A DNA stretch of 64,000 nucleotides from assembly GCF_011761185.1 (NCBI RefSeq), contig NZ_JAAOYM010000001.1:186001-250000 (forward strand), read 5' to 3'. Source of the DNA: Saccharomonospora amisosensis. Lineage in GTDB: Bacteria > Actinomycetota > Actinomycetes > Mycobacteriales > Pseudonocardiaceae. The notes below the pieces were generated by a model, which saw nothing but the letters and a program-made list of their open reading frames with translations, was not told where the DNA came from and made no database searches. The position numbers and the translations under genes were made by a program. Positions 12,688 through 49,093 of the stretch are shown here, piece by piece; position 1 is the stretch's first letter; every line of letters begins with the position of its first letter.

Positions 12688-12703
12688 AGTGTGCTCCTGG
12701 GCA

Positions 12704-13681: not shown

Positions 13682-13694
13682 GGAACCCCTCTCC

Positions 13695-13733
13695 CTAACG
13701 CCGTTAGAGGAAGCATCTCTCTAACAGTGTTAG
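13695..13733. promoter_or_regulatory. Twin TetR operators
   Basis: Two copies of CTAACnnnGTTAG occur at 13695-13707 (CTAACGCCGTTAG) and 13721-13733 (CTAACAGTGTTAG), with centres 26 bases apart. They fill the 53-base gap between the divergent ATPase and TetR genes, so the regulator probably represses both. The recognition motif can be read directly: 5-bp arms with a 3-base centre. Confidence 0.75.
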
Positions 13734-13734
13734 G

Positions 13735-14445: not shown

Positions 14446-14462
14446 CGGCGCCGCCTGCCGGC

Positions 14463-14795: not shown

Positions 14796-14876
14796 ACGTC
14801 GAGTGTGTGCCACAACCGCGCGGGACGCGACAAGGGTTCAACCGGCCACGTGGCCGACCTCGCTCGGCAGGCGGGC

Positions 14877-15398
14877 TCAGCCGCCGTAGGTACCCTCGTC
14901 GTAGTCGTCCAGACCGAGCAGTCCACGGATGGTTGCGGCGGCCTGCCCGCCGTCGTGCTCGGCGGCGCTGATCACCGCGTCGATCAGATCCTGGCGGGTG
15001 TCTGCCCGCTGTGCCTGGTGCCAGTACCGCTGTGCCTGCTTCGAATCGTCCACCAGCCGAGCCACCGCGGCATCGACTTCGGGCGGCCAGCGAGTCGACT
15101 CCAGCTCTCGCAGGTGCCGCTCGTTGGCGGTGGCGGTCTCGGCGGCGAGGGCGTTGAGCGTGGACAGTGGCTGCCCGGCGTTGACCGCCTGCTCGAGTCG
15201 TTCCAGCGCACGGTTGTACGGCTCGACGATCGCCAGGTAGCGCGCCGCGGCCTGCTCGGTGGACAGCACGGCCTGCGTGCTCTCCACCGAGGTCGAGGCC
15301 TGCGGTGGTGGGAGTGAAACGGGTGAGCCCGAGGTGGTCGCGCACCCTGCCGTCGAGGCAAGGAGCGCGACCACTATCGGCGTGACAGCTCGACGCAA
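14877..15398 (-). CDS. Small secreted lipoprotein of unknown function
   Basis: About 173 residues if translation begins at TTG 15398, just after the amidase stop at 15412. The N-terminus LRRAVTPIVVALLASTAGC has a positively charged start, a hydrophobic core and a lipobox ending at Cys19. The mature part is helical: TEQAAARYLAIVEPYNRALERLEQAV and TATANERHLRELESTRWPPEVDAAVARLVDDSKQA look like a helix bundle without enzymatic motifs. It follows the amidase with a 13-base gap, so it may serve the same envelope process. The longer open frame to 16247 in this phase is a shadow of the amidase repeats. Confidence 0.75.
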   Translation of the reverse strand: MRRAVTPIVVALLASTAGCATTSGSPVSLPPPQASTSVESTQAVLSTEQAAARYLAIVEPYNRALERLEQAVNAGQPLSTLNALAAETATANERHLRELESTRWPPEVDAAVARLVDDSKQAQRYWHQAQRADTRQDLIDAVISAAEHDGGQAAATIRGLLGLDDYDEGTYGG

Positions 15399-15411
15399 GG
15401 CCTGCCGCCCG

Positions 15412-17352: not shown

Positions 17353-17521
17353 TCGACCCCCAGAGTTCGGTGGCGAATCTCAACAAATTGGTGCCGCGGT
17401 TCGCGCGGCCGCCGAATCGTAACCGACCGATTTCGTAAGTTTTCGGGGGCCAATGTTGGCAAATAACGAACTTGGCTCTGAATCGGAATGTTGCCGCGGG
17501 GAGAACAATTCGGCGATGTGA

Positions 17522-17872
17522 TCAGAGCGCGAGATGCAGCCGCAATGCGTCGTCGAGCGCCCGAAGCGAGGCGGAGCCGAGCCTGCCGATCCGGCGGTTG
17601 CCGAGTCGCTCGACAGCGATCGAGCGCACCTGCTCGGCCTGCGCCTTCGAGGCATGGCGCAACCCGGATTCGCCCGCCTGGAGCAGCACCTGAAACGGGT
17701 AGACGCGGGCCACGTTCGACGTCACGGGCACCACGGTGACGACACCCCGGCCGAGTCGGCTGGCGGTGCCGTTGGCTCCGTCGTTGCCGACGATCACTAC
17801 CGGGCGTTGCTTGCTGGTTTCGCTGCCGCGCGTGGGGTCGAGGTCGGCGAGGTAGATGTCGCCCCTGCGCAT
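17522..17872 (-). CDS. PemK/MazF-family toxin
   Basis: 116 residues. The family fold is visible in MRRGDIYLADLDPTRGSETSKQRPVVIVGND, VVTVVPVTSNVARVYPFQVLL and SKAQAEQVRSIAVERLG, the last being the active-site-proximal Ser/Thr-Lys-Ala region. MazF-type toxins cut mRNA at short sequences. The start codon follows the antitoxin stop with no gap, so expression is coupled to the antitoxin, as usual. The target sequence cannot be predicted. Confidence 0.9.
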   Translation of the reverse strand: MRRGDIYLADLDPTRGSETSKQRPVVIVGNDGANGTASRLGRGVVTVVPVTSNVARVYPFQVLLQAGESGLRHASKAQAEQVRSIAVERLGNRRIGRLGSASLRALDDALRLHLAL

Positions 17873-18091
17873 CTACGGTCGCAACCCGTCGGCCGCCGTG
17901 GCGTCCCAGTCTGCCGCTTCGGTTTCGTCCCAGTCGCGCCATGCCTGCGCGTAGGCATCACCGAGTTGTGCCGCCTTGAGCAGTTCGACGGCGCGGTGTA
18001 GCACCGCCGAACGTGAGCCGATCTCGTGTTCGCGGGCGTAGTGGTCGAGGAACTCGATGTCGTCGGGCGGCAGGCTGACGCTGACCTTCAT
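17873..18091 (-). CDS. Ribbon-helix-helix antitoxin
   Basis: 72 residues from ATG 18091. The N-terminal MKVSVSLPPDDIEFLDHYAREHEIGSRSAVLHRAVELL is a ribbon-helix-helix DNA-binding domain as in CopG/ParD-like antitoxins. The acidic C-terminal tail (WDETEAADWDATAADG) is suited to block the toxin. The stop codon TAG (17875-17873) abuts the toxin ATG. The pair probably represses its own promoter just upstream. Longer frames in this phase up to 18619 run through the P450 gene and are rejected. Confidence 0.88.
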   Translation of the reverse strand: MKVSVSLPPDDIEFLDHYAREHEIGSRSAVLHRAVELLKAAQLGDAYAQAWRDWDETEAADWDATAADGLRP

Positions 18092-18139
18092 ACCCACCAT
18101 GCTACCGAGGGTAGGAAGGGGGTGGTAAGGCACTCGAGT

Positions 18140-18218
18140 GCAGAACTCGCGGGCGGGGACGCAGAACTCGCTGGCAACAGCGGGGGACTCGCGGGCAGGA
18201 GCGGGGGACTCGCGGGTG
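18140..18218. repeat. Dispersed intergenic repeat, copy A
   Basis: Four imperfect units of about 20 bases built on GCAGAACTCGCGGGCGGGA occur in tandem between the antitoxin gene and the P450 gene. The same family occurs at 52550-52610, so it is a dispersed intergenic repeat rather than a local accident. Confidence 0.75.
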
Positions 18219-18222
18219 GCGG

Positions 18223-19449
18223 TTACCAGCCCGTGGTGGAGGTGTGGGTCGGGGTGAACTCCACCGGCAATGCGATGAGGCCCCGCATCCACACCGACTG
18301 GCGCCACTCCAGCTGCTCGCCCGGCACACTGAGATGCACGTCGGGAAGCCGGTCGAGAACCACCTCGATGCCACCCTCCACGATGGTCGCCGCGATCTCC
18401 TGCGCGGGGTAGGGGCAGCCGTGTTCGCCGTGGCTGAACGACATGTACGCCTGGTTTCCGACGGCGTTGTCGTAGGACTCCGGGCGCACGTGCGGGTCGG
18501 TGTTGGCCGCGGCCAGGCCCAACACAAGCAGGTCGCCGGTCTGGATGTGGTGCCCGCCGAGATGGGTGTCCCTGGTGGCGAAGCGGCCGATGAAGTTCTG
18601 GGTCGGGGTTTCCTCCCACAGCACCTCGTTGAGCGCCTGCCCCACGCTTCGCCTCCCACCGGAGAGGTTGACCGCGAACCGGTCGTCGGTGAGCATCAGC
18701 CGCAGGGCGTTGCCCATCCAGTCGGCGGTGGTCAGCTGACCCGCGCCCATCGTGAGGAACAGGTCGGTGGCGATCTCGTCGTCCGAAAGCGCCATCGGGT
18801 GCTCCAGGATTCGCGAAGGCAGGTCACCGCCGGGTCGCTCGCGCTTCTCCCGGACGAGGGCGCGCATGCGTTCCACGATCCGCTGGTGGGCGCGAACCGC
18901 CTCGTCACCCTCGTCGGCGGAGGCGGCCACGTCGCGCACCAGCACGGGGGCCTCGGCGTCGGGCAGCCCGAACAGCTTGGCCAGCACCAACAGCGGAAGT
19001 TGATGGGTGTACTCGCTGACCAGGTCGGCCTCGCCCTTGCCCGCGAACCGGTCGATCAGCTGGTCGGCGAGCCGCTGCACGTGGGAGCGCAGCTCTACCT
19101 GGTCCACCTCCGCCAGCGCTCCGTGCAGCGCCGGTGCCAGCCGCTGGTGTTCCTCGGCGTCGGTCAGGATCGAGGAGGGCTGGTACTCCACGTACGGCCG
19201 CAGCGACCAGTCCGGCGAGACGTGTTTCCAGCCGTGCCAGCCCCGTGACGTGCGGGCGAACAGGTGTGGGTTGCTGGTCACGTAGTAGACCTCGCGGTAG
19301 CCGAGCACCAGCCAACCGGGCACATCGCCTTCGAGCAGCACGGGGGCCACCGGCCCGTACTTCTCGCGCATCTGCCGGTACAGCTCCGCAGGATTGTTCT
19401 GGAAGCGCGGACCGTACAAAGTAGCGACTTCCTGGTGCGTACTTGTCAT
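18223..19449 (-). CDS. Cytochrome P450 lacking the ExxR arginine (CYP157-like)
   Basis: 408 residues. The haem loop is FSHGEHGCPYPAQEIA with the ligand at Cys345, and the I-helix is MGAGQLTTADWMG near residue 235. The K-helix, normally ExxR, reads EVLW at residues 275-278, so the conserved Arg is a Trp; a PERF-like segment follows only loosely. Loss of this Arg is known from CYP157C1 of Streptomyces coelicolor (EQSLW), a conservon-linked P450. This gene is not beside the conservon at 1-5 kb but 14 kb away. No ferredoxin gene is adjacent. Substrate unknown. Confidence 0.88.
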   Translation of the reverse strand: MTSTHQEVATLYGPRFQNNPAELYRQMREKYGPVAPVLLEGDVPGWLVLGYREVYYVTSNPHLFARTSRGWHGWKHVSPDWSLRPYVEYQPSSILTDAEEHQRLAPALHGALAEVDQVELRSHVQRLADQLIDRFAGKGEADLVSEYTHQLPLLVLAKLFGLPDAEAPVLVRDVAASADEGDEAVRAHQRIVERMRALVREKRERPGGDLPSRILEHPMALSDDEIATDLFLTMGAGQLTTADWMGNALRLMLTDDRFAVNLSGGRRSVGQALNEVLWEETPTQNFIGRFATRDTHLGGHHIQTGDLLVLGLAAANTDPHVRPESYDNAVGNQAYMSFSHGEHGCPYPAQEIAATIVEGGIEVVLDRLPDVHLSVPGEQLEWRQSVWMRGLIALPVEFTPTHTSTTGW

Positions 19450-36812: not shown

Positions 36813-36886
36813 GGCCAGGTAGCTCAGTTGGTACGAGCGTCCGCCTGAAAAGCGGAAGGTCGCCGGTTCGACCCCGGCCCTGGCCA
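36813..36886 (+). tRNA. tRNA-Phe (anticodon GAA), integration target
   Basis: The acceptor GGCCAGG (36813-36819) pairs perfectly with CCTGGCC (36879-36885). The anticodon loop CTGAAAA gives GAA. From the anticodon loop onwards the gene is the left copy of the 46-bp att repeat, so the integrated element restores the 3' half of the gene. Confidence 0.96.
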
Positions 36887-36890
36887 CACC
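36845..36890 (+). other. attL
   Basis: Left copy of the 46-bp att core, from CTGAAAAGCGG in the anticodon loop to four bases past the tRNA-Phe end (CACC). Identity with the right copy is complete. Confidence 0.92.
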
Positions 36891-36902
36891 CCATACCAGC
36901 GC

Positions 36903-36936
36903 AAACAGCCTCCGCCGATCACAGCGGGGGCTGTTT
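36903..36936. terminator. Hairpin between tRNA-Phe and the integrase
   Basis: AAACAGCC(T)CCGC (36903-36915) pairs with GCGGGGGCTGTTT (36924-36936), 13-bp arms with one G-T pair. It can end transcription from the tRNA cluster and from int on the other strand. Confidence 0.7.
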
Positions 36937-36950
36937 CGCATCCGGCCTCG

Positions 36951-36969
36951 TTGCAGTCTTGGTTGCAGT
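36951..36969. promoter_or_regulatory. Left integrase arm-type sites
   Basis: TTGCAGT occurs at 36951-36957 and 36963-36969, 12 bases apart, between attL and int. An identical pair with the same spacing lies near attR (45072, 45084), as expected for arm-binding sites of a tyrosine integrase. Confidence 0.6.
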
Positions 36970-36989
36970 TGGCCTCGATTACGTGCCGG

Positions 36990-38309
36990 TCAGGACTCCC
37001 ACAAGTAGCCGTTCAGCCGGTCCGCGATGTCCCGCCGGAGCGCTCCCGTGATGTGCTGGTACCGCTTAGCCATCGCGGTGTTGGACCATCCCATGAACTC
37101 CATGACAGCCCGCTCAGGGACGCCGAGCACAAGCAGCACGGTCGCGGCCGTATGGCGCGCGTCGTGCAACCGGGCCTCCCTCACCCCGGCCTCTTCGAGC
37201 AACGCCTTCCACTCGTCGAGGTCGCGTCGCGGGTCCAGCGGCTTTCCGTTCGGCTGCGCGAACATCCAGTCGCCCTCGTGCCACTCCGACCCGGCCAGCT
37301 CGCGCTCCTTGGCCTGCTTCTCCTCGTGCGCAATCAGGAGGTCATACAGGCGATCAGGCAGCACGATCCCTCGCTTGCCAGCATGGGACTTCACGTCCAC
37401 CTCGACCAGGCCGCCACCGTGGCGCTTCGGACACCACCGCGCGTGACTCATGCAGTCCGGCGGACACGGGGGTGGACACGGCTTGCGCTGGTGCCGCTTG
37501 CAGTCCTCCTTGCACGGATTCGCTTTGTGGTATTTCGCACCGCACTTGTGCGGGTTGTCGCATCCGTGCTTCCAGGTCTGCCGCTGCAATTGCTTCGCGA
37601 TGCGGAGAGCCTTGTGCTTCCTGTCCAGGCGTGACCACTTCAGGCCGATCGTTTCGCCCTGCCGTGTTCCGAGCGTCAAGGCAAGCACGAAACGGACGCC
37701 GTTTCGCCACGACAATGCCGTTACGAGAAGCTGACCTATCTCGTCTGCCTCGAATGGCTCGATCTCCGCTTCTTCGAGCCGTGGCGGCTTCGCCAGCTCA
37801 ACCGGATTCCGAACGGTGTGCCCGCGCCGCAATGCCTCACCAAACGCGGTGCGGGCCGTCCGATGTACCTGATGTGCCGTCCCCGCCTTGAGTCCAGAAG
37901 TCAACATCTTCGCGTACAGCTTCTCGAAGTGTTCCGGCTCGATCCTGTCAACCCGATGCGCTCCCAAATTCGGGATTAGGTGCCGGTACACAGCGGTCCG
38001 GTACGCGTTCGCGGCTTTGTGGCGAACGGATGGTGCCGCGATGTTCTCGAACCAGTGCGTGAGCCACTTCTCTACGGTCCATGCACGGCCAGGCTTCTTG
38101 ACCTTTCCTGAATCGCGCTGCTTCTCGAGCTCGCGTACGGCGTCGATCACTTCGGCTTCGGTTCTGCGCTGGAGGTGGCGGCGGTCGGGTTTGCCGTCGT
38201 CGCGGGTGCCCATCGTGACCCAGCCGTGCCACTTGCCGTCGCTGCCTTGGTAGATCGAACTGGCTCCGTTGGGGCGTCGGGTGCCCTCGGATCGCTTCTT
38301 GCGTGGCAT
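36990..38309 (-). CDS. int: Tyrosine integrase with a Cys/His-rich insertion
   Basis: 439 residues. An N-terminal arm-binding domain (SIYQGSDGKWHGWVTMGTRDDGKPDRRHL), a SAM-like core-binding domain (about residues 75-165) and the catalytic domain follow. Catalytic residues are visible as LGTRQGE, HDARHTAATVLL, GWSN and the Tyr in AKRYQHI. Between the first Arg and the catalytic Lys, at about residues 245-295, lies a Cys/His-rich insertion starting CDNPHKCGAKYH and ending CPKRH with eight or more Cys, likely zinc-binding; similar insertions occur in other actinomycete integrases. It should recombine attP with the tRNA-Phe attB. Confidence 0.95.
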   Translation of the reverse strand: MPRKKRSEGTRRPNGASSIYQGSDGKWHGWVTMGTRDDGKPDRRHLQRRTEAEVIDAVRELEKQRDSGKVKKPGRAWTVEKWLTHWFENIAAPSVRHKAANAYRTAVYRHLIPNLGAHRVDRIEPEHFEKLYAKMLTSGLKAGTAHQVHRTARTAFGEALRRGHTVRNPVELAKPPRLEEAEIEPFEADEIGQLLVTALSWRNGVRFVLALTLGTRQGETIGLKWSRLDRKHKALRIAKQLQRQTWKHGCDNPHKCGAKYHKANPCKEDCKRHQRKPCPPPCPPDCMSHARWCPKRHGGGLVEVDVKSHAGKRGIVLPDRLYDLLIAHEEKQAKERELAGSEWHEGDWMFAQPNGKPLDPRRDLDEWKALLEEAGVREARLHDARHTAATVLLVLGVPERAVMEFMGWSNTAMAKRYQHITGALRRDIADRLNGYLWES

Positions 38310-38330
38310 GTGTCGTGTCCCCCTGGGTGT

Positions 38331-38558
38331 TCAGGCTGCGGTGTGCTGGGTCTTGGTGAGTTGCTGGACGTAGGTGGTGAGGGCGTCGGCGGGTACGCGG
38401 CGGAGGTGGCCTATGCGGACGGTGGTGATGTGTCCGGCTTTGATGAGGGCGTACATGGTGGTTCGGCCGATGGACAGTTGCTGGGCGGCTTCCTCGACGG
38501 TCAGGAGCACTCGCCCGCGGTTCGGGGTGGTTGTCGGGTTGGTGTGGGGGGTGTGCAT
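38331..38558 (-). CDS. xis: Xis-like helix-turn-helix protein (excisionase)
   Basis: 75 residues from ATG 38558. The MerR-like/HTH_17 fold is typical of excisionases: LLTVEEAAQQLSIGRTTMYALIKAGHITTVRIGHLRRVPADALTTYVQQL. It directly precedes int on the same strand (21 bases), the usual xis-int order in actinomycete elements. It probably bends the att DNA to favour excision. Confidence 0.88.
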   Translation of the reverse strand: MHTPHTNPTTTPNRGRVLLTVEEAAQQLSIGRTTMYALIKAGHITTVRIGHLRRVPADALTTYVQQLTKTQHTAA

Positions 38559-38639
38559 CTGCTGCGGCTCCCGTGGTTCGCGGTGGTGTGGGGTCGCGGA
38601 GATGGCATGGCGTGCTCCTTGTCGTGGGGTTGGTGTGAG

Positions 38640-39635
38640 GGTTGGGCGGTAGTGAGTGCGTAGTGACTGGGCCAGTGAGTGGCGCGGGTGGGAGTGGATA
38701 TTCACTTGCCCGCTCACTAGGCCCGGTCACTAGGGATGTCCTGCTGAAACAGGCAGGAAGTGAGTCAGTGACCGGAGTGAGTCACCGCCGGTGTGGGGCC
38801 GGTTCTGGGCGGGTACGGGGGTGGCTTCGGTTCGACTCACTCCCGTGTCTTCGGAGTCACTGGCTGCGTGGTCGGGCGTGGTGAGTTAGCTCGGGCCTTG
38901 ACGGTCGCCACCCCCCGTATTCGCCGTGTCAGGTATGGCTGGCGGCGGGGGCTAACTGGGCTCACTGGCTAACTTCGTGCTGGTCAGCGTGGGTTAGCCC
39001 CGGTCCGGGCGGCGAGTTAGGAACCTAACTCGCCGGTGCCGGCTCACTCGCGGCCTCACCGCCCGTTGACCGGTCGGTCCGGTGCCCTGTGTGGCGGTGG
39101 CCGGGCCGTGTCGCGGGTGTGGGCACGGTAGGCAGGCGGAGGGAATCGGCGAGGGAGTCGCCGGGGATGGAGGGAATTTTCCCTCACCGCCTCCCTTGGC
39201 CGCTTCCCTCGGGTTGACGTGCGGAAAGGCTGTTGGAGGGAGGCAGGGAGGCAAGGGAATCCGACCCGCTGAGACCTGCTGTGAGCGGCTTTCGCGGCAG
39301 GAGGGGTGATTCCCTCCCTCGACGCACCGGCGGGTGGGGAGGGAGGCCGCCCGCGATGTCCAACAACCCCGGTTCGAGGCTGTCTGCCATGGCTGTGACG
39401 GTGACTCCCCAGCCTCCCCAAGGTCGGTTTGGGCAGCTCAGCGGGGGGAGGACAGGCGGGGAGGGTGTTGGGGAGAACTCCCCGCCTCCCTACGGCCTCC
39501 CGCGCCGCCTCCCCACCGGTCCCCTGCCACAGAGAGTGACAGAGGTGGGTGGCCAGTAGCGCCACGTTGGTCCAGTGGCGCCAGTGGCGCCATGGCTCGG
39601 GGGTGTGGCGCGACTGGCGCCACTGTGGCGGGACT
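38640..39635. repeat. Thousand-base non-coding block of layered short repeats
   Basis: No credible gene lies between xis and the AAA gene (38559-39639). Instead successive sub-blocks use different short motifs on both strands: AGTGAGT/AGTGACT (about a dozen between 38651 and 38970), GTTAG/CTAAC (38884-39034), GAGGGAA/TTCCCTC (39138-39320, including a dyad at 39170-39185), GGGGAG/CTCCCC (39336-39500, dyad at 39470-39483) and TGGCGCCA (39576, 39586, 39615). The composition suggests an origin, transfer or regulatory region, but the role is inferred. Confidence 0.7.
39011..39034. repeat. Perfect 11-bp-arm palindrome
   Basis: GGCGAGTTAGG (39011-39021), AA, CCTAACTCGCC (39024-39034). This is the strongest dyad in the repeat block and could be a protein-binding or cruciform site. 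Confidence 0.8.
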
Positions 39636-39639
39636 GTGG

Positions 39640-40863
39640 TCATGGCAGGCTCCAGAAGGTCCGGCGTGGGAAGCCCTCGGCTTGGGCGGTTACTTTGAGT
39701 GACCTTCGAGCGCGTTCGATGGTGCGTTCGGAGAACCCGGCCGTGCGGCCTGCTTTCTTGGCGTCGGCCGATGCTGCGGTACCGCCATTGGCGGTGAGGT
39801 AGTCGGAAAGCCAGCCCTCGGCGGCATCACGTTCGGTGCGATCGTCGCCGCCGTTGTCGGCGTCGTTGAGTAGTGCCTCTACGTGGGTGTCGGTCTCGCC
39901 GGTGATGGTGAGTCGGCCCCATTCGGCGGGGCCTTCCTCGGTGTCGAGGGTGATCGACTCGACCACGTAGCGCAGGGATGGCAGGTCGAGTCGCCCGAGG
40001 TTGTTCTTGGCCTGTGAGATCACGCAGGAGCCGTCGTCGGCGCTGGTGTCGCGGGCGAAGGCGATTGCGGCACGGGCGACGGCGGAGAATGCCCGTGAGC
40101 CGGTGATGCGGGAGAGCACGTCCGTCCCGGTGGCTTTGTTGAAGTGGGCGAGGCCGAAGATCGTGCAGCCGGACGCATCCGCCAGCCGTGCCAGTGGTTC
40201 CAGTGCGCCGCGTAGCTCCCGGTCCTGGTTGACGTTGATCCGGGCGTCCACGGCGGAGATGAGCGGGTCCACGATTAGCAGGGCGACCTCGTGCGCGGTG
40301 ATCTCGGTAGCGAGGTCGTCGCAGTCACGCGGAAGTGACAGCGGGACCGTGGTTCCGGTCGCGTGCTCGACTTCGACCCGGTAGACCCGTTGCATGTCGG
40401 CCCCGGCCACGATGAGCCGTCCCGCGAGGGTGCGTTCCCAAGAGTCCTCAGTTGCCGCGTAGATCACGCTCATTGGGCGACCGTGGTAGACGCCGGGGAG
40501 TTCGCCGTGAGTGACCCGTGCGGCCAGCCACGAACAGAACAGGGACTTGCCGATGCCTTCCCGGCCCGGTCCGAGGGTGAGCGCACCGTGCGGCATGCGG
40601 CCGTCCCACAGCCAGTACGTCGGGCGTAGTCGCACACTGGCCGCCGGGGTGAGCCGGACCCGTCGCGACCCGTCCGCAGGTTCTCGGTTCCGGGCGGTGC
40701 TGGGGTTCTTCCCATGCAGGTCGGCGGGTTCGGGAAGAACCTCGGATGAAGGTTCGGGAAGAACGTCGGTAGAGGGTTCGCCGGTGGGTTGTTCACGGGG
40801 CGCGTTCACCGGGCGAAGGTGTCGTTCGCCTGGCTGTGGGGCGGTCAAATCCAGACTCCTCAC
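39640..40863 (-). CDS. RepA-like AAA (RecA-fold) ATPase
   Basis: 407 residues from a putative GTG 40863; the start is uncertain, and GTG 40808 is another choice. The RecA-like core begins near residue 80: Walker A GREGIGKSLFCSWLAARV, Walker B VALLIVDPLISAV, and the downstream ARAAIAFARDTS. Relatives include the hexameric replicative helicases RepA of RSF1010 type and AAA_25 proteins of actinomycete elements. The N-terminal 75 residues are disordered. It lies between two repeat arrays, so it is likely to act in replication of the excised circle. No primase-polymerase gene accompanies it. Confidence 0.85.
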   Translation of the reverse strand: MRSLDLTAPQPGERHLRPVNAPREQPTGEPSTDVLPEPSSEVLPEPADLHGKNPSTARNREPADGSRRVRLTPAASVRLRPTYWLWDGRMPHGALTLGPGREGIGKSLFCSWLAARVTHGELPGVYHGRPMSVIYAATEDSWERTLAGRLIVAGADMQRVYRVEVEHATGTTVPLSLPRDCDDLATEITAHEVALLIVDPLISAVDARINVNQDRELRGALEPLARLADASGCTIFGLAHFNKATGTDVLSRITGSRAFSAVARAAIAFARDTSADDGSCVISQAKNNLGRLDLPSLRYVVESITLDTEEGPAEWGRLTITGETDTHVEALLNDADNGGDDRTERDAAEGWLSDYLTANGGTAASADAKKAGRTAGFSERTIERARRSLKVTAQAEGFPRRTFWSLP

Positions 40864-41019
40864 CAGAGGGGATGGGTGTTCGTGAACGGGTGTGTCGTCG
40901 AGTCGAGTCGACCCCTCGACTGCCTCGACTTTCGCTGGTCAGCGCGAGCGATCGAGGCGGCCCGATCGAGGCCGGTTTCGCCTGGTTTTTTGCTGTGCGC
41001 TGCCTCGGATGGGTTGGCT

Positions 41020-41210
41020 GTGACACTTGGGTGTGGGTGTCTCCGTCCCCTGGCTGTGGGCGGGTTGTGCCGTCACGTGCGTGGGGGTGTTGAGCGGCGT
41101 TGGGGGCTGGGGAAGTGTCACAAGTGTCATCGGGGCAGGTCAGAGGCCATGGGCAAGTGTCACGGGGGCTGTGACACTTGCTCGATGTGTCGCAGGGGGT
41201 GTGACACTTG
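41020..41210. repeat. Iteron-like array of CAAGTGTCAC / GTGACACTTG
   Basis: Six copies of a 9-10-base motif: GTGACACTTG at 41020-41029, AAGTGTCA at 41113-41120, AAGTGTCA at 41122-41129, CAAGTGTCAC at 41154-41163, GTGACACTTG at 41171-41180 and 41201-41210. The fourth and fifth form a perfect 10-bp inverted repeat with a 7-base gap. Located about 160-350 bases upstream of the AAA gene, they resemble iterons or an operator array. No gene is seen in 40864-41600. Confidence 0.75.
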
Positions 41211-41322
41211 CTCGCGGTTACGGTGTGTAGTGGATTGTGGGTAGGGGCTACGGGGCGAGTACCCGGGGAGGGAGTCGCGTGGGGGGTGTCTTCGTGTGGT
41301 TGTGATGGGGGTGTTGGCGGGT

Positions 41323-41395
41323 GTGGCTCCGTTCGTTGTGACCCCGATCGGTGCGGGCGTGCGTGGCTCCGTTCGTTGTGACCCCGATCGGTGCG
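41323..41395. repeat. 33-bp direct repeat
   Basis: The 33-bp unit at 41323-41355 (GTGGCTCCGTTCGTTGTGAC and thirteen more bases) is repeated exactly at 41363-41395, period 40. A partial third copy may follow near 41425. It is in the same gene-free stretch as the iterons. Confidence 0.8.
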
Positions 41396-41600
41396 CCTGC
41401 CGGTCGAGGTCGATTTCCGCAGGTCCATTGCTGTGGGTCGCTCCGATCGACCCCGGTTGGGGTGCTTGCCGTTCGCGGCCGGGTGGGTGGCATGTCCCCC
41501 AGCATCGGCGGCTGCGGCGGTTCACGGCAGGGCGCACAGGGGGGCGCATTGGAGCGCGAGGGGGGCACACGGCGTCGGCTGTGTGCCCCCTGCGGAGGTG

Positions 41601-42011
41601 CTACCCGGCCGCTGTCGCCAACGCGCGCCGATCGGACGCCGGGCGGGTCCGGGGTGTCGGGACCAACGCCGGAGCGAACGCGCGGCGAACGGCCTGGCGC
41701 ATGGCGTTGGTGAACTCGTGCATCACCGTGCCCGGCTCCAGCGCGCACATTCGCGCGTAGGCCTCGTTGATCTGGTCCAGGCCAGCGTTGATGACCTGAT
41801 CGGCGACCATCTCGCGCACAAACTCCAGGTCGTCCAGCTCGTCGGCCTCCAGGCCGATCTCGGCTGCCCGGAACAGGGCCGCGACCATGTCATCCTCGCT
41901 CAACCGCAGCGGCGCGCTGAACGCCACCGTGCGCGGTCCCCCGTCGTACTGGGCAGCCTGGACTCGCACCGTCTGCGGACCGAATCGGGCCGTGGTCATG
42001 ATCTTCGCCAT
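41601..42011 (-). CDS. Hypothetical protein of the element
   Basis: 136 residues from ATG 42011. It starts one base after the stop of the HTH gene, so the two are translated together. The sequence starts with a beta-like segment (TARFGPQTVRVQAAQYDGGPRTVAFSAPLRL) and continues with acidic helices (EADELDDLEFVREMVADQVINAGLDQINEAYARM). No family is recognised. Similar small genes next to the Xis-like HTH are frequent in actinomycete elements. Confidence 0.72.
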   Translation of the reverse strand: MAKIMTTARFGPQTVRVQAAQYDGGPRTVAFSAPLRLSEDDMVAALFRAAEIGLEADELDDLEFVREMVADQVINAGLDQINEAYARMCALEPGTVMHEFTNAMRQAVRRAFAPALVPTPRTRPASDRRALATAAG

Positions 42012-42012
42012 C

Positions 42013-42270
42013 TCAGGCCACCTCCCCAGCCTGCTCGCCCTCAGCGTCCGCAGCCGAGGCACCCTCGACCACGTAGGACTGATACGCCGCCTCCGAACAC
42101 GCATTGACGTAGGCGTTCGCGGCCGCGCCCGTGACGCGCAAGGTGGCCTTGCCCAGCTTCAGCGCGTCCAGCTTCCCGGCCTCAATGGCCCGGTAGATCG
42201 TCGTAGCCGAGACGTCCAGCGCCTCTGCCACTGCCTTCACCCGGTACATCCGGTTAGGCTCGAACTGCAT
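42013..42270 (-). CDS. Helix-turn-helix (HTH_17/excisionase-fold) protein
   Basis: 85 residues from ATG 42270 with GGGAG upstream. The HTH_17 core is MYRVKAVAEALDVSATTIYRAIEAGKLDALKLGKATLRVTGAAANAYV. The acidic tail of about 25 residues is without motif. It is divergent from the GntR gene across a 190-base region. It may be a transcription factor for the element's minus-strand genes rather than a second excisionase. Confidence 0.8.
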   Translation of the reverse strand: MQFEPNRMYRVKAVAEALDVSATTIYRAIEAGKLDALKLGKATLRVTGAAANAYVNACSEAAYQSYVVEGASAADAEGEQAGEVA

Positions 42271-42399
42271 CGATGCTCCCAAGGTTTCGATGTCCGCCCC
42301 GGCCGGTGTGCCAGCACCGGTCGGGGCTTTCTGCCGTGTCGGGGGAGTCAGTGACTCGCGCGACGACTGCAACACTAGAGAAAACAGCCAACATAGACA

Positions 42400-42426
42400 A
42401 CCTAGGTAAGCTGTTATCACCTAGAT
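42400..42426. promoter_or_regulatory. Candidate operators of the element's GntR regulator
   Basis: ACCTAGGT (42400-42407, a perfect 8-bp palindrome) and ACCTAGAT (42419-42426) are 19 bases apart, and CTAGGT with ACCTAG form an inverted repeat across them. They lie between the divergent HTH and GntR genes, the expected place for autoregulation. Confidence 0.5.
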
Positions 42427-42460
42427 GGGTTAGTTGCCTGTGTGGCGTATCCTGCTGGTC

Positions 42461-42817
42461 GTGGACAGCCTCGACCCTGACGACGTACGACCGCCGTATC
42501 TCCAGGTCGCTTCCGCGATCCGGGGCGACATTGAGGACGGCAGCTACAAGCTGGGAGACAAGCTTCCGCCTCACCAGGCCATCGCGGAGCAGTACGGCGT
42601 TTCGGTCGGCACCGTGAAACGTGCGTACGGTCTGCTCCAGCAAGAGCGCTTGATCATCACTCGCCAAGGACAGGGTTCGTTCGTCCGATCGAAACCGGCT
42701 CAAGAGGAAGCGGCAGGGGAGACCGGCGACCTCGCCGAGGTCTACTCGCAACTGGCCTCCATTCGCCGCCGCCTGGATGTCCTTGAGCGCGAGCTGCGGG
42801 AAGTCAAGGCGCGCTAG
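42461..42817 (+). CDS. GntR-family regulator of the element
   Basis: 118 residues if GTG 42461 is used; TTG 42434 or GTG 42440 would add up to nine residues, and none has a good ribosome site. The winged helix reads PPYLQVASAIRGDIEDGSYKLGDKLPPHQAIAEQYGVSVGTVKRAYGLLQQERLIITRQGQGSFVR. A short coiled-coil C-terminus (EVYSQLASIRRRLDVLERELREVK) could mediate dimerisation. It resembles KorSA-type repressors of pSAM2-like elements, which control the replication and transfer genes. Confidence 0.88.
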   Translation: MDSLDPDDVRPPYLQVASAIRGDIEDGSYKLGDKLPPHQAIAEQYGVSVGTVKRAYGLLQQERLIITRQGQGSFVRSKPAQEEAAGETGDLAEVYSQLASIRRRLDVLERELREVKAR

Positions 42818-43002
42818 CCGCCCACCTGACGCAAGAAGGTCACAACGCCGTCGAGCCAGCTCAGCAGTGTCTTCACCCAGCTCGCGGCGTCGGCTGGGTA
42901 TTTCGCGACGACTACCAAGAGCGCCAGGACCACTACGGTGCCGATCACCTTTTTCAGCGGGCTGGTGCTGGTCTGAAGTCCGGGAAACGTCTGCTTGGCC
43001 AT
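42814..43002 (-). CDS. Small single-helix membrane protein
   Basis: 62 residues from ATG 43002, preceded by GGAGGGA. One membrane helix covers about residues 18-34 (VIGTVVVLALLVVVAKY), followed by an amphipathic segment, ASWVKTLLSWLDGVVTFLRQ. It overlaps the end of the GntR gene by four bases in convergent orientation. Small membrane proteins of this kind occur in actinomycete elements, sometimes near transfer functions. Function unknown; a toxin-like peptide is one possibility. Confidence 0.75.
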   Translation of the reverse strand: MAKQTFPGLQTSTSPLKKVIGTVVVLALLVVVAKYPADAASWVKTLLSWLDGVVTFLRQVGG

Positions 43003-43201
43003 CGTTGCTCCCTCCGTCGCAATCGTTGCTGGCTGCGCCGTGCTTGCTCATGTCTCCAGCGTGCTGCCAGCCAGCGCGGGTGAGAACTGTCCAGAAACCC
43101 CCTCAGCGCTGAACTTCTGCCGAACCAGCGGCACTGAACCTCCGCTGAACTTCGCGGCTGTCAGGGCGCGATCGAGGCCACTCAGATGGGAGGCTGACGG
43201 C

Positions 43202-43981
43202 ATGCAACTGAACGGTGTCGAACCGGACCCCGACCAGATCAAGGCCCTTGCGTTGACCAACTACGGCCACTTCACGTCGATGTTGGTCGAGCGTGGCGAG
43301 GTGCGCGGGCTGTCACTCCACATGCAACGGTTGGCGAGGGACTGCCGCCAACTGTTCGACGTCGAACTGGACACCGAGCGAGTGCGCGGTTACGTGCGCC
43401 ATGCTCTCGGCAGCGACGCTCGACGCACCGTTGTACGGGTCACCGTGTACGACCCCGCACTCGGCCTGGGCAACATCGGGGCGGACGCTGACCCGCACAT
43501 ACTCGTAACCACGAGACCTGCCCCGGATGCCGCTTCTCCGCCGCTGCGTCTCCAAGCAGCGTCCTACCGTCGTGAGATGCCGTCTGTGAAGCACATCGGC
43601 CTGTTCGGCGCCCTGAAGCATCGGCGCGACGCGCAGCGTGAAGGCTACGACGACGTCCTCTTCGTCAACCCCGATGGCACGATCTCGGAAATCGCCACGT
43701 CGAACATCGGGTTCATTCGCGACGGGCAAGTCGTTTGGCCCCGTTCGGAGTGGCTCGCCGGAACCACGATGAACCTGATCAACCGGGCACTTGACGAGCC
43801 GGTAGCGACGGAGCCCTTGACCCTGTCGCACCTGGGTGGCATGGAAGCTGCGTTCGCTACCAATGCCGCGACCGGCGTCCGGCCGGTCGCCGCAGTTGAC
43901 AGCACGGAATGGCCAACCACTCACAAGATCCTTGACGAGCTGCGCGAGCTGTACGCGGACATCCCCGGCGAAACCGTGTAG
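43202..43981 (+). CDS. Class-IV aminotransferase (PLP), element cargo
   Basis: 259 residues from ATG 43202, eight bases after GGGAGG. The fold is that of branched-chain/D-amino-acid aminotransferases and aminodeoxychorismate lyase. The likely PLP Lys is in PSVKHIGLFGALKHRRDAQREGYDDVLFVN, and the following GTISEIATSNIGFI holds the conserved Glu and Ser-Asn pair. TNYGHFTSMLVERGEVRGLSLHMQRLARDC resembles the N-terminal domain. The substrate is not evident. It is followed after 59 bases by the HTH-SUMF1 gene. Confidence 0.87.
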   Translation: MQLNGVEPDPDQIKALALTNYGHFTSMLVERGEVRGLSLHMQRLARDCRQLFDVELDTERVRGYVRHALGSDARRTVVRVTVYDPALGLGNIGADADPHILVTTRPAPDAASPPLRLQAASYRREMPSVKHIGLFGALKHRRDAQREGYDDVLFVNPDGTISEIATSNIGFIRDGQVVWPRSEWLAGTTMNLINRALDEPVATEPLTLSHLGGMEAAFATNAATGVRPVAAVDSTEWPTTHKILDELRELYADIPGETV

Positions 43982-44040
43982 TCCGGCGGACACGGTCCGC
44001 TACGCTCCCCTCGCGGGATGTATCACCTTGGGGGTAGCGA

Positions 44041-44988
44041 GTGGCGACGGTCGAACGGTGGACCGGCATCGAGGTACGTGCACTTCGCGAGGCGAAGCGG
44101 ATGAGCATCCGCGAGTTCGCCGCACACCTGGGCGTCAGCGAGCGCATGATCTCCAAGTGGGAAGCCGGTCGGGAGAACATACGTCCCCGGCCGGTCAACC
44201 AGGCCGCGCTCGACACCTGCCTGACACGGTCGGACGCGGACACCCGTGCCCGGTTCGCGCACCTCGTCGGCGATTCGCTCGTTTCGGATGCTCAACCCGA
44301 CCTGCATCCCGAGCCCATCGGTTCCGACCGGATCAAGCATCCTCGCGACGGCAGCGACATGGTCAAGGTGGAGGGGAGCGTTTTCCTGTCCGGTCCCAGC
44401 AACGAACCGGTCTGGGTGCCTGAGTTCTACCTTGACGCTCATCTCGTGAGCAATGCTCAGTACGCGCAGTTCCTCGCTGCCACAGGGCGGACACCGCCGC
44501 AACGGTGGGAGAACGGCCGCTACCCCGAGGGGCTCGCTGACCATCCGGTCGTGTTCGTGACCTGGTATGACGCTGCCGCATACGCGGAATGGGCAGGCAA
44601 GACGCTACCGACCAGCCAGCAGTGGGAGAAGGCGGCCCGCGGCACGCGAGGCAACGTGTATCCCTGGGGTGACCAGCCAACCCCGGCGAAGTGCAACGTC
44701 CGAGAGAACGGCGTCGGTTCCACAACCCCCGTGGACTGCTACCAGAGCGGTATCAGCCCGTACGGGGTCTACGACATGTGCGGCAACGTCTGGGAGTGGT
44801 GCTCGACCGAGACTCGGCACGGCCGGTACGAGCTGAAGGGCGGAGCGTGGACAAGCCTGTTCGACCGTGCCACGCCGTCGTCGTTCAACGACGCGGCCGC
44901 GACCATGTGCGACGACGACACCGGCTTTCGGTGCGCGACATCGGTGGAAGCGCTCGACACCCTGCTGAGTGACCGTCACGGGCGGTAA
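44041..44988 (+). CDS. HTH (XRE)-SUMF1 fusion protein, element cargo
   Basis: 315 residues from GTG 44041 (GGGGGTAGCGA just ahead). Residues about 8-60 are an XRE-type helix-turn-helix (VRALREAKRMSIREFAAHLGVSERMISKWEAGRE). Residues about 105-300 are a SUMF1/formylglycine-generating-enzyme fold: MVKVEGSVFLSG, VSNAQYAQFLAATG, PVVFVTWYDAAAYAEWAGKTLPT, YDMCGNVWEW and GFRCA. The Cys pair used by true FGE for copper-dependent oxidation (CxxxxC shortly before GFRCA) is absent; only TMCDDDTGFRC is seen. It may be a regulator with a binding SUMF1 domain or a non-haem iron enzyme. Confidence 0.88.
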   Translation: MATVERWTGIEVRALREAKRMSIREFAAHLGVSERMISKWEAGRENIRPRPVNQAALDTCLTRSDADTRARFAHLVGDSLVSDAQPDLHPEPIGSDRIKHPRDGSDMVKVEGSVFLSGPSNEPVWVPEFYLDAHLVSNAQYAQFLAATGRTPPQRWENGRYPEGLADHPVVFVTWYDAAAYAEWAGKTLPTSQQWEKAARGTRGNVYPWGDQPTPAKCNVRENGVGSTTPVDCYQSGISPYGVYDMCGNVWEWCSTETRHGRYELKGGAWTSLFDRATPSSFNDAAATMCDDDTGFRCATSVEALDTLLSDRHGR

Positions 44989-45071
44989 GGGCTGCTGGAA
45001 CACTGGGGGGCGCGTGGCTCCTGACGGTCAGCAGAGAGCGACTGAGCGGCTCATTCCTGATTTGCTGCGCG

Positions 45072-45090
45072 TTGCAGTCCGCGTTGCAGT
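45072..45090. promoter_or_regulatory. Right integrase arm-type sites
   Basis: TTGCAGT at 45072-45078 and 45084-45090, the same motif and 12-base spacing as at the left end. They lie 95 bases inside attR. Confidence 0.6.
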
Positions 45091-45184
45091 TCAAGCCCGT
45101 TCAGACTGCCCCAACTGTTCCAGCCAGCGTGTTTTCCGCAGGTCGCGGTACCGGTCGGACGTGGCTGAACGGTCATCCCGAGAG

Positions 45185-45230
45185 CTGAAAAGCGGAAGGT
45201 CGCCGGTTCGACCCCGGCCCTGGCCACACC
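45185..45230 (+). other. attR
   Basis: Right copy of the 46-bp att core; it carries the 3' part of tRNA-Phe (anticodon loop to acceptor end) without the 5' half. Confidence 0.92.
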
Positions 45231-45329: not shown

Positions 45330-48300
45330 TCAACCTTCGGCCGCGTCGTCCGGTCCGGTGTGGGTGTGCATCCGAGCGGCCATGTCGTTCCAGAACTGCC
45401 GCAGATCTCGCCGCTTCGTGTGTTGCCAGGGGGCGCGGTGTCGGCGGAACGGATGCCGCCACCCTCTTTCCCTGAAGCCTGAACTCACCGCGGTCGCCTG
45501 CCTGCGGCAGAACGCTTCACCAAGTTCACGCAGGTCTCGGGCCCCGCGCGGCGGGTAGGGGCACAACTCGAATGAGCAGCCGTCCACACATCTGGAACCC
45601 GGTCGACTTGGGCCCTGCTTGGCCACGCTGAGCAGCGGGTCCAGCGGCCTGCGATCGCCGTCGAGGCATGGCGGAAGTTCGGGCTGATTGACGCGCTCGA
45701 GGTAACGATCGCGTTCTCGCGGGGTCTCGCCCCGCTCGCTGAGGTTCAGCAGCAACAGCACGTCGCCGACGAGTTGCTGGGCTTCGGGCCGCAGCGCGCT
45801 CCAGCCGGTGGAGGGTGGTATCCACAGGCTGTGGATCCGGTGCCGGGTCGGGTCGCCCGTCGCCGACCCGATCCTGTTCACCACACCTACCTCGTCGATC
45901 CAGATGAACTGTTCCGGCTTGCGTGTCCGCAACGCCGACTCCGCGAGATTGGCTGCTTCCAGCACGAAGGGATGCAGGCGGCCTGCCGAGCCGATACTGG
46001 CGAGGTCGAGCCACTGATCGACGCGGTTGCGTGGCGACTTGTCCTGCCATTGCGCAGTGTTGTCACCGGTGGCGACCTCCTCGTCGGGAAGTGCCCACAG
46101 CGTGAGCGCATGGATAAGGGTGAGCTGGGTGAACCATGACCTCGCACACCTGAGCATCTGCTCGGCTTGGCCGATCAGGATGTCCCGTGCCTCCGTGGAG
46201 CTGGCCGGATGGCGCACTCGCCGGTTCGCCGCCGCTTTGAAGCCGCGGGCCAAAGCTCGCTCGACCGACAGCGGCAACCGGTCACGGTGTCCGTCCTCCC
46301 GCCTGTCCGGGTTGATGCCCTCGCACCAGCTGTGTAGCCAGCGCTTGACGTTCTCGCGATGCTCGGATTGGGCAACCGACCCCAGCAACAGCGGAGTCAC
46401 CTGTGCGGCGAGTACGACCTCCCGCCAGAGGTCCCATGCGTTGCCGGGTGGTTGCCGCGGTGGGCCTTTCGTCACCGGAACCTTCCTCACGCCTTCACGT
46501 CGTGCTCCGGCGGCCGTTCCCTTCGTTGCTACCCGTTCTTGCGCGACGACCCGATCCGCCTCCCGGATCTCGATGTCTTCGGTGTCTTGCTGCCGGATCT
46601 TGTACCTGGTCCACGGGTCCTTCAGTTCGTCGTAGAGCGCGACGTGTGCGGTGTCTCCTCCCGCTCCGAGCTCTTCCACGATCGCTATCCGGACGCGGTA
46701 GGACTCCTCCTGCAGTCCTATCTCGCGGAGGCGTTCGTAGGCAGGCAGGTGGAGGTTCACGCTTACCGCGTTGTCCGGGTGGGAACGGTCGGCTTCCCAT
46801 TGCTCCCCGAGACTGCGCAGCACTTCGCCGAATCGGTGCACCAACTGAAGCTTGGCCTCCTCAAGGCCTTTGGTGTCGTCCGACCGTATTTCTCTCCATT
46901 TCTTGGCAAGCTCCGCGGCGAGTTCGTGGTGTAGGCAGAGCCCGCCGCAACCGGAACCGGCGAGGGTTCGCGTGGCCGGGTGAGAGTTGGCTTGCCTGTG
47001 CCGTCGCACGACGTGGGCGGCGTCGATCTCCAGCGCGGTCCCGTAGAGGTCGAGGACCTTCTCTCCCTTGCGTCGATCCGATCTGTTCCCGTTGCCCATG
47101 AGATCCTGAGCGGCTCTCTGGAGTTCCTTCACCAACTTGGCTTCGGACTGGGCGTCATCGTCGGTCCGCGCGTGCTGCCCGTCGCGCTGTATCGTCGCGT
47201 CGAGGTCATTGCGGGACAGGAAAACCAGCGCGGTCAGCAACTCCGGACCCGGCCCGGTGGAGTTCCGGATCGCCGGGGAGACAATCTGTCCCACATCTTC
47301 CTTCGGCAGATCCTCCATGAACCGCGCGCCCAGGTAAGCCTGCATCAGGCTGTGCTGAAACCTGACTCGCTCGCCGTGGGCTTCCACAAGGCCCAGTTGC
47401 TCGGCCCAGATGGCCGCGAGCGGGAGGTCGATGCCGAAATGGTCCGGCCCGGCCCGGCCGCTCAGCTCGTCCAGTTTCCGACTCAATCGCTGCGCTATGG
47501 ACCAGTGGGTCTGGCCGTGGTCGGTTCGCGGTGGTCGATGATGGAAGCTGAGCAAGGCATCCCAGCCCCTGCCGGCCTCGCCACCGGGCGTGTCGGTGGT
47601 GGCGAACTGCGCGACGGCCATGTCGACCCCCTCCGTCTCCCGGTTGTCGGGCAGCGCGGTGTCGAGTTCGCCGAACGGCACCTCGACGGTGTCCAGCCGC
47701 AGACCGATGCAGGCCAGAGCGGAGACCTGGAGTATCGCGGCCTCACGTTCGAAGCGGGTCAGCGCGGGCTTCTCCTGGATTTCTCCCTCGATCACCGCGT
47801 CGACCCAGGTCTTCATCAGCCGCCTGCGTAACGCGGGACGGTCGACGGATCGGGTGTCGAGTTTGCCCTTAGCGGTCCTGCCCAGCACGTGCTGCAGCAT
47901 CCGCTTCCGGGAGAGCTCCTTGGTGATCCGGAGGTAGAGGGGCATGTCGGTAACCCGGCCTCGCTCCACCACCCAATCCAGGCGGTGCTCCTCCTCGGGG
48001 TCGTAGTGCTGCTGCACGTACGCCAGTGCCGCTTCCTCGCTCAACGGCTCCAGCTCGACGACTGCCGCCTCCACCGACTCCAGCGGGGCGTGTGGCCGGG
48101 TGGCGATGATCAGCGGAAGCCGGTCCTTGCCGGCGTCCCGGATGGCGTTGCGGATCAGGTTGTCGCGGTCCTTTTCCTTCTTCCCGTCGGCGAACACTTC
48201 CTCGAGCCCGTCGGCCAGCACGACGATCCGGTTCTCCTTGCGCAACCAGCGCCATGCCTCCTCGGCAATACGTGTCTTGACAAGCCAACTCTCGAGCATG

Positions 48301-48938
48301 GCCTCGTCAACCTCGCGGCAGAAGCGTTTCCGTGCCAACTCGCTGAAGTCGAGTTCGGTGCCGTCGCCCAGATCGCGTAGCCGGAGAGGAACGGGTACCG
48401 CACGGTTCTTGGCGAGCAGTTTCGTGAGCCGCACGATTACGGCCGTCTTGCCAGCACCCGGGCCTCCGACGAGGAGGTGCGGTCGCCGCTCGTTGGGGTC
48501 GCGCAGGTTCTCCTTGAGTACGTAGCACATCTGGTCCCTGCCGACGACGTCCTGGATGATGCTGCCCTTCGCGGTCGGGACGAACTCGCGGGTGTTCTTC
48601 ACGGCCCGTTTGGTGAAGGCGCGCTTGGCCAGCCGTAGCCGAAGCAGGAGCAAACCGGCCAGCCCGACAGCCAACGGCAGGAGGACATAGATGATGGCTT
48701 CGTACCGATCGATCCAGGGCTGCACCCCGCCTGGCTTTTGCGGCACCGCAGGCCAGACGAGCAGGAAGGCATAGGCGAGCAGGCCTGCGACGGCCAGCCA
48801 GGAAAGGATCCTGGTCCGCCAGCGGCGCGGCCACCGCCAGATGTTTGCGAACCTGCCGAAGAACCCTGGGGTCGCGACCGACTCCAGTGCTTCGCGCTCG
48901 TGGGTCACCGGCTGTCCGGCACGCTCGTTTCGTGGCAT
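45330..48938 (-). CDS. Membrane-anchored NACHT-type NTPase, candidate defence protein
   Basis: 1202 residues from ATG 48938, with GGAGTGGG upstream. Two membrane helices at about residues 45-63 and 81-101 anchor the N-terminus. The NTPase core has Walker A GGPGAGKT at 158-165 and the Walker B form VVLADGLEEV near 240-248, as in NACHT/STAND proteins, then a winged-helix-like region and about 800 residues of helical C-terminus without recognised repeats. STAND NTPases with large C-terminal sensors serve as antiphage receptors (Avs and bNACHT families) or as regulators. It lies 100 bases outside attR. The C-terminal Cys/Arg/His-rich end is unusual. Confidence 0.85.
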   Translation of the reverse strand: MPRNERAGQPVTHEREALESVATPGFFGRFANIWRWPRRWRTRILSWLAVAGLLAYAFLLVWPAVPQKPGGVQPWIDRYEAIIYVLLPLAVGLAGLLLLRLRLAKRAFTKRAVKNTREFVPTAKGSIIQDVVGRDQMCYVLKENLRDPNERRPHLLVGGPGAGKTAVIVRLTKLLAKNRAVPVPLRLRDLGDGTELDFSELARKRFCREVDEAMLESWLVKTRIAEEAWRWLRKENRIVVLADGLEEVFADGKKEKDRDNLIRNAIRDAGKDRLPLIIATRPHAPLESVEAAVVELEPLSEEAALAYVQQHYDPEEEHRLDWVVERGRVTDMPLYLRITKELSRKRMLQHVLGRTAKGKLDTRSVDRPALRRRLMKTWVDAVIEGEIQEKPALTRFEREAAILQVSALACIGLRLDTVEVPFGELDTALPDNRETEGVDMAVAQFATTDTPGGEAGRGWDALLSFHHRPPRTDHGQTHWSIAQRLSRKLDELSGRAGPDHFGIDLPLAAIWAEQLGLVEAHGERVRFQHSLMQAYLGARFMEDLPKEDVGQIVSPAIRNSTGPGPELLTALVFLSRNDLDATIQRDGQHARTDDDAQSEAKLVKELQRAAQDLMGNGNRSDRRKGEKVLDLYGTALEIDAAHVVRRHRQANSHPATRTLAGSGCGGLCLHHELAAELAKKWREIRSDDTKGLEEAKLQLVHRFGEVLRSLGEQWEADRSHPDNAVSVNLHLPAYERLREIGLQEESYRVRIAIVEELGAGGDTAHVALYDELKDPWTRYKIRQQDTEDIEIREADRVVAQERVATKGTAAGARREGVRKVPVTKGPPRQPPGNAWDLWREVVLAAQVTPLLLGSVAQSEHRENVKRWLHSWCEGINPDRREDGHRDRLPLSVERALARGFKAAANRRVRHPASSTEARDILIGQAEQMLRCARSWFTQLTLIHALTLWALPDEEVATGDNTAQWQDKSPRNRVDQWLDLASIGSAGRLHPFVLEAANLAESALRTRKPEQFIWIDEVGVVNRIGSATGDPTRHRIHSLWIPPSTGWSALRPEAQQLVGDVLLLLNLSERGETPRERDRYLERVNQPELPPCLDGDRRPLDPLLSVAKQGPSRPGSRCVDGCSFELCPYPPRGARDLRELGEAFCRRQATAVSSGFRERGWRHPFRRHRAPWQHTKRRDLRQFWNDMAARMHTHTGPDDAAEG

Positions 48939-49093
48939 GGTTCCCACTCCAGCCGTGCTCGCCGGGTCACCTGGCCAGGAGCTACCCGGATCTCTTCTCG
49001 AAATGCCGTTCTGTGACCGCGGCAAACGTCGCTCACTCGAAAGGGTGAAAGGGGCTTCGTGGTGGCAAGGTCTGCCGACGGTGTGATCAAGTC

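Follow-up and report, generated by a model that had tools for sequence, protein, structure and literature searches.

A traB-less element in a tRNA-Phe gene of Saccharomonospora amisosensis with several clt-like repeat arrays: a candidate hitchhiker of integrative and conjugative elements

How does an integrated element spread when it encodes no transfer function itself? The question is raised by a locus of Saccharomonospora amisosensis (contig NZ_JAAOYM010000001.1, positions 186,001 to 250,000; this whole stretch of 64,000 nucleotides is called the window), in which an 8.4-kb element, counted from att to att, is inserted at a tRNA-Phe gene. With actinomycete integrative and conjugative elements (AICEs) of the pSAM2, SLP1 and pMEA300 kind it has in common a tyrosine integrase acting on a tRNA 3′ end, xis, a GntR regulator, a small membrane protein, its own Rep and a clt-like array (clt, cis-acting locus of transfer). 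However, TraB is absent, several array types are present, and the size is about half that of an AICE in genome G027. In Streptomyces, TraB is an FtsK-like hexamer which reads short clt repeats and moves double-stranded DNA (passages in PMC4170104 and PMC3583192). Judging from its sequence, the element is quite probably mobilisable with the help of AICEs, through several clt sites on which TraB would dock.

The integration and replication functions are laid out as follows.

36813–36887, + strand: tRNA-Phe, the integration target (ARAGORN)
36845–36890, + strand: att repeat of 46 bp on the tRNA side, at the tRNA-Phe end; exact repeat, both copies also in G001
45185–45230, + strand: att repeat of 46 bp on the distal side; exact repeat
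36990–38309, − strand: tyrosine integrase, int (PF00589, Pfam)
38331–38558, − strand: xis, 75 aa (HTH_17/TIGR01764; sibling open reading frame in G001)
39640–40863, − strand: RepA-type AAA_25 helicase/ATPase (PF13481, phrog_10729)

The two att copies are identical. The xis frame runs from 38331 to 38717, where a longer GTG start is possible; the true start is probably 38558, to judge by the 75-aa frame of the sibling in G001, a genome of the same genus. The exact att repeats, int, xis and RepA-like AAA ATPase reported in an initial annotation of this DNA were all recovered, as was its GntR regulator (42434–42817 by Pfam). The absence of an FtsK/TraB gene claimed there also held. Pfam detected neither FtsK/TraB nor a relaxase in the nine proteins of the element, and no primase domain. 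A hidden Markov model (HMM) built from 57 TraB sequences had no match at E ≤ 10 in six-frame translations of the element and 23 other elements; it matched 9/9 loci selected as AICE controls, part of which had also served for training. The proposed check for a translocase or primase under better models thus produced neither. RepA matches only the helicase half (368–714 of 722) of a phage primase/polymerase family. By sequence, this AAA_25 RepA-type helicase constitutes the replication module, a predicted role, and it is none of the AICE types named in passages of PMC3218068 (RepSA, RepAM, Prim-Pol). The element therefore has the tRNA integration and replication modules of an AICE without the FtsK/SpoIIIE-type TraB, no motor of its own, as in an element mobilised by the TraB pathway, and no relaxase as in a relaxase-type integrative mobilisable element (IME). 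The earlier proposal was upheld in that the element integrates, has a replication-type gene but no translocase, and would have to borrow its transfer.

What could a borrowed motor recognise? The non-coding DNA of the element contains these repeats, given without strand.

38640–38779: clt-like array A (AGTGAGT/ACTCACT); 84% identity over 140 bp with a region 3′ of another traB, resident in G001
38885–39050: array of CTAAC/GTTAG words; word class of the CTAACCC arrays in other elements and in traB 3′ region L228
39127–39267: clt-like array B (AGGGA); palindromic core at 39171–39209, found also 3′ of traB in both resident AICEs
39390–39514: clt-like array C (GGGGAG); matched by 20/70 traB 3′ regions, some of which also match array B
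39552–39639: GTGGCGCCA array; no traB match by alignment
41019–41214: array D (AAGTGTCAC); has the TGASCWGC box of other clt-like modules
41213–41327: segment with 80% identity across 113 bp to the outer portion of what follows traB in the resident AICEs

The stretch from xis to repA has 7 copies of its best hexamer per 300 bp, a count reached in 0/300 Markov simulations, and AGGGA occurs 14 times per 300 bp (simulated mean 2.58, maximum 9). The interval between repA and the next gene is weaker, with a best hexamer count of 6 (reached in 10/300 simulations) and five copies of TGTCAC (simulated mean 0.55, maximum 3). The initial annotation had described two separate, replication-like arrays flanking repA. 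Arrays do lie on both sides; their number exceeds two, and mostly they are of kinds found 3′ of traB in AICEs and are better read as transfer (clt) sites. We infer that arrays A, B and C may act as clt sites; array D and the segment 41213–41327 perhaps do so, too. Four regions of the element are clt-like, and three match AICEs resident in its own genome (39127–39267, 41213–41327) or in that of its sibling (38640–38779). At sequence level, a clt-like site is thus common to the element and a candidate helper. As a general RepA iteron TGTCAC was rejected, clusters of at least 4 per 300 bp occurring in only 4/20 AAA_25 elements (the window, L015, L016 and L032). Array D is not claimed as an origin because TGTCAC is not general and the box of clt-like modules is present.

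Candidate helpers reside in the same genome (G000). It has two AICEs with full-length TraB (PF01580, 28.7 bits each), and the two TraB proteins are 98% identical. By Pfam one of the AICEs carries a DUF3631 Rep and GntR, the other a Prim-Pol; by eye both have NUDIX-like and GntR-like genes. Near GntR each also has a homologue of a 62-aa protein of the element. They are located at C1:1388000–1406000 and 1968500–1986500, with traB at 1396572–1398764 and 1976579–1978795, and the surrounding genes partly differ. From 39139 onwards the window has the repeats AGGGAGGC and CCTCCC, which recur just 3′ of traB in both AICEs. In the entire genome (5.53 Mb) a triple GAGGGA pattern was present at exactly three places, i.e. 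in the element and both AICEs; the reversed control gave 0. A strict core, AGGGARWWTTCCCT followed by CTCCCT and then YTCCCT, was used in other genomes because there both the loose triple pattern and its control match at many background positions. This core yielded 17 sites in 13/390 genomes of the family and 0 control sites. Six of the 17 lie 3′ of traB, starting after its stop by 18 bp in each of the two own AICEs, by 94 bp in G027 and G404 and by 17 bp in G304 and G407. Ten lie in traB-less elements (window, G001, G036, G279, G341 and G011, two each in G247 and G260); the one in G279 has a TraB-like frame beyond its tRNA-side end, at a distance of about 3.5 kb. The remaining site (L174, G025:C10) is on a 43-kb plasmid-like contig in which no TraB was found; ParA-like and recombinase-like genes were seen by eye, and it is perhaps a mobilisable plasmid. 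The 17 sites align over 111 columns with 71% mean identity and 22 invariant positions. The core co-occurs with AAA_25, DUF3987 and DUF3631 replication genes and at least two integrase types. Because rep and integrase types vary around it, traB is the constant neighbour of the core in these AICEs. The 17-kb AICE of G027 occupies the same tRNA-Phe; its integrase is 92.5% identical to that of the element, and it carries a Prim-Pol and an FtsK/SpoIIIE protein. The int, xis, GntR and small membrane protein genes of the element all have AICE relatives.

Is this likeness general? A genome scan of GTDB with RepA gave 28 loci. Fifteen of these, the G001 sibling and the window make up 17 bounded elements; with 7 of approximate bounds, 3 of them at or near a contig edge, the set comprises 24 traB-less elements. 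Of the 13 RepA loci in which no att pair was found, 11 were dropped and two (L018, as L044, and L041) were kept with approximate bounds. For comparison, 60 traB regions were hand-picked, mainly from the top of a family search; one (L265) was a wrong pick without TraB. In the interval from −60 to +340 bp relative to the traB stop, 31/60 regions have at least 6 AGGGA and 40/60 at least 4; the palindromic core is present in 21/60. At least 6 AGGGA occurred in 2/657 background windows of 400 bp, and these were the two arrays contained in the set, array B and that of the G027 AICE. Other repeat words 3′ of traB are GGGGAG, CTAACCC, CTAGACC, CCGCTAG, GGGTGGA and ACTCACT, among others. By blastn, 56/70 traB 3′ regions matched the 24 elements, compared with 6/70 for a coding control and 0, 0 and 1 for shuffles. 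Across 198 kb of element DNA there were 37 regions like traB 3′ ends; 188 kb of chromosome, a background from which loci known to hold elements had been left out, contained 0. A box-based finder gave 29 modules and 0 modules in the same DNAs; this is an undercount because it found only 1 module in the window and recognised 7/70 traB windows. Repeat matches between an element and a traB of the same genome exceeded label permutation (43/5000 as high). Shared repeated 7-mers amounted to 9/105 in host-family elements (anagram control mean 2.47, maximum 9; traB coding set 6/105) and to 5/60 in other elements (control mean 1.62, maximum 6). Unrestricted 7-mer sharing is modestly above the anagram control, and alignment is the stronger test. 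Eight AICE loci had one array type each and at most one short further match.

Does the element move? The 17 bounded elements measure 6.7–9.7 kb, are flanked by copies of the end of a tRNA gene (for tRNA-Phe, Ser, Pro, Ala, Arg or Thr), and 15 of them are in 11 named genera. The check for like elements elsewhere, suggested in the initial annotation, was answered by the sibling, which occupies the same tRNA-Phe in G001 and has two exact att copies. Between sibling and window the int-xis, HTH-GntR-membrane protein and cargo segments (HTH, helix-turn-helix) are 98.7–99.8% identical and the non-coding stretch from xis to array B 95.9%, whereas the flanking chromosome is only 92.8–94.2% identical. 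Because of this difference, an exchange after the species split, and a recent one, is suggested. The sibling has a different kind of rep gene, with 59% identity to the DUF3987 Rep found in the G027 AICE, yet array B is kept. An empty attB, also asked for, was found in G015, where the tRNA-Phe is present once, the genes downstream keep their order and 12 kb contain no match to this int or xis. Just outside the sibling an integrase fragment (L043 3978–4283, 42% identity) is perhaps the trace of an earlier element in this tRNA-Phe. A TraB search of the 13 att-less RepA loci detected traB in one, L037 (Streptomyces speibonae, 10001–18704). There, traB is 5 kb from repA and GAGGGA repeats begin beside the traB frame end; therefore this RepA type, and the array type too, also occur at a Streptomyces locus with traB.

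The element probably travels on borrowed machinery because it lacks a transfer gene and carries sites like those beside traB. Int and Xis would excise it and RepA would copy the circle. The TraB hexamer of a resident AICE would dock on whichever array it recognises and would pump the circle as double-stranded DNA into a neighbouring cell, where Int would insert it into tRNA-Phe. Several array types would allow the use of several helpers. With somewhat less assurance we favour the wider view that actinomycetes hold widespread traB-less elements, each with a clt battery of different TraB lineages, i.e. one hitchhiker and many helper AICEs. If true, double-strand conjugation has helper-dependent hitchhikers of its own, and from the array type one could predict which helper moves which element. 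The element and its relatives supply candidate clt sequences for several TraB lineages, and a single genome offers a natural candidate hijacker together with two candidate helpers.

Several points weigh against this proposal. The word AGGGA was chosen after inspection. Eight genomes have array B in a traB-less element; among the traB regions inspected, four of them (G001, G036, G260, G279) have none with at least 6 AGGGA, and four (G000, G011, G247, G341) have one. The mismatch in 4/8 is compatible with reliance on another array, with a helper encountered elsewhere or with a lack of function. Eight RepA relatives in genomes which, from their genus names, we take to be Micromonosporaceae are without array B (1–3 AGGGA per 300 bp); six of the eight have a CTAG-type array. 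Finally, the protein that binds the shared arrays could be a regulator or a partition protein and not TraB.

Could the arrays be origins of replication, i.e. iterons which became common through exchange of replication modules, with transfer not involved? Iterons are common at origins, the arrays flank repA in the element, and in AICEs they sit between traB and the replication genes. This is nevertheless unlikely. When the rep gene was swapped from AAA_25 to DUF3987 in G001, array B kept its place. It accompanies AAA_25, DUF3987 and DUF3631 Reps, yet in the six AICEs concerned it begins at most 94 bp past the traB stop, and one Rep has no need of several array types in a small replicon. Even less do we favour a remnant AICE which lost traB and in which the left-over clt sites have no present use. 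The integrase, 92.5% identical to that of an AICE in the same tRNA, and the GntR and membrane-protein genes common to AICEs would agree with it, and passages in PMC3218068 call Frankia elements without tra or rep remnants or mobilisable. However, no stop codons or frameshifts were seen in the element genes, and a single lost traB would not account for arrays that belong to several traB types. Moreover, 24 traB-less elements exist, 17 of them bounded and similar in size; of these 17, 15 come from 11 named genera, and near-identity extends across species.

The initial annotation had also likened the element to phage satellites, and packaging by a helper phage would suit its small size. RepA has relatives in Mycobacterium and Microbacterium phages (32–37% identity among the matches listed, 20 of 98 records), mostly annotated as primase/polymerase proteins, and ten loci with relatives are in IMG/VR. 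A distant element relative (L040) has a capsid gene, and the HTH part of an HTH-FGE cargo protein weakly matches terminase small subunit family phrog_57 (E 0.00035). Yet the only other packaging-type match is a partial one of the FGE part to tail family phrog_11262 (E 1.6e-6). Save for these weak matches no packaging or capsid-hijack genes and no phage-shared site were found, cos and pac sites as such not having been searched. The array B core had 0 matches in the 2.9 million viral contigs of IMG/VR, and the integration and regulation genes (int, xis, GntR, membrane protein) are AICE-related. The satellite likeness is thus not supported and packaging is very improbable. Repeats shared with helpers, another proposed check, were confirmed for AICEs by the core 3′ of traB and not for phages. 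The TraB of L080 had no match in IMG/VR either.

How does the proposed AICE-dependent mobilisation relate to known systems? According to passages in PMC3583192, the clt of plasmid pWTY27 consists of 16 bp within the tra gene and 159 bp adjacent to it, and Tra binds its short direct and inverted repeats. Its position is like that of the arrays 3′ of traB; the repeat words differ and the plasmid has its own tra. The Frankia elements Fean1457, Fcci0407, Fcci1144 and Feul5809 are AICE relatives without tra or rep, as the element is without traB, yet the relevant passages of PMC3218068 contain no clt or helper evidence, whereas the element has clt-like arrays. Staphylococcal plasmids with pWBG749 oriT mimics (passages in PMC8136818; see also PMC4652767) are non-conjugative DNA mobilised by copying the transfer site of a helper, and their site subtypes match helper subtypes; they differ in using a relaxase-type single-strand system and in being plasmids, not integrative. 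IMEs and iOriT hitchers are integrated and helper-dependent like the element (PMC11389934, in part, where plasmids with several oriTs are mentioned). Here, however, a double-strand FtsK-like pump would dock on the site, and no relaxase was found. As relaxase systems are known to include oriT mimics and mobilisable plasmids with more than one oriT (passages in PMC11389934 and PMC8136818), the principle itself has precedent. In the part of Choufa et al. (2022) consulted, hijacking is stated as an open question and cis-mobilisation of defective AICEs is mentioned. Among titles and abstract beginnings of the open-access literature, with subscription papers and preprints mostly outside, no description was found of elements that lack traB and carry clt sites of more than one TraB.

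The other genes of the element are these.

41601–42014, − strand: small protein, DUF6181 match below cut-off (Pfam)
42013–42270, − strand: HTH_17 protein, 85 aa, kept in host-family relatives
42434–42817, + strand: GntR regulator (Pfam)
42814–43002, − strand: membrane protein, 62 aa (by eye), with homologues near GntR in both resident AICEs
43202–43981, + strand: cargo, aminotransferase class IV (PRK09266, domain match); homologue also in L169
44041–44988, + strand: cargo, HTH and FGE-sulfatase-type domain protein (domain match); homologue also in L169

The cargo pair (43202–44988) recurs at 71% and 75% in an element near tRNA-Ser of G260 (L169 14521–16243). PADLOC had no match for the aminotransferase, the 62-aa protein, a 137-aa protein or GntR, and its matches on the FGE protein were confined to the HTH region. 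A gene for a 1231-aa NACHT/STAND NTPase (45330–49025), also without a PADLOC match, separates the distal att from the flank that the window has in common with G001.

Among the 17 bounded elements L040 (Flaviflexus, 6426–15227) is an outlier with tRNA-Pro repeats, a primase-helicase and the phage capsid gene, a possible capsid-encoding satellite. L114 and L115 are 22-kb circular Streptomyces plasmids (NZ_CP058979, CP108844) in which GntR adjoins a RepA-type ATPase, together with HNH, integrase and ParA genes. One of the two has a tape-measure-like protein, and both are phage-plasmid or satellite candidates.
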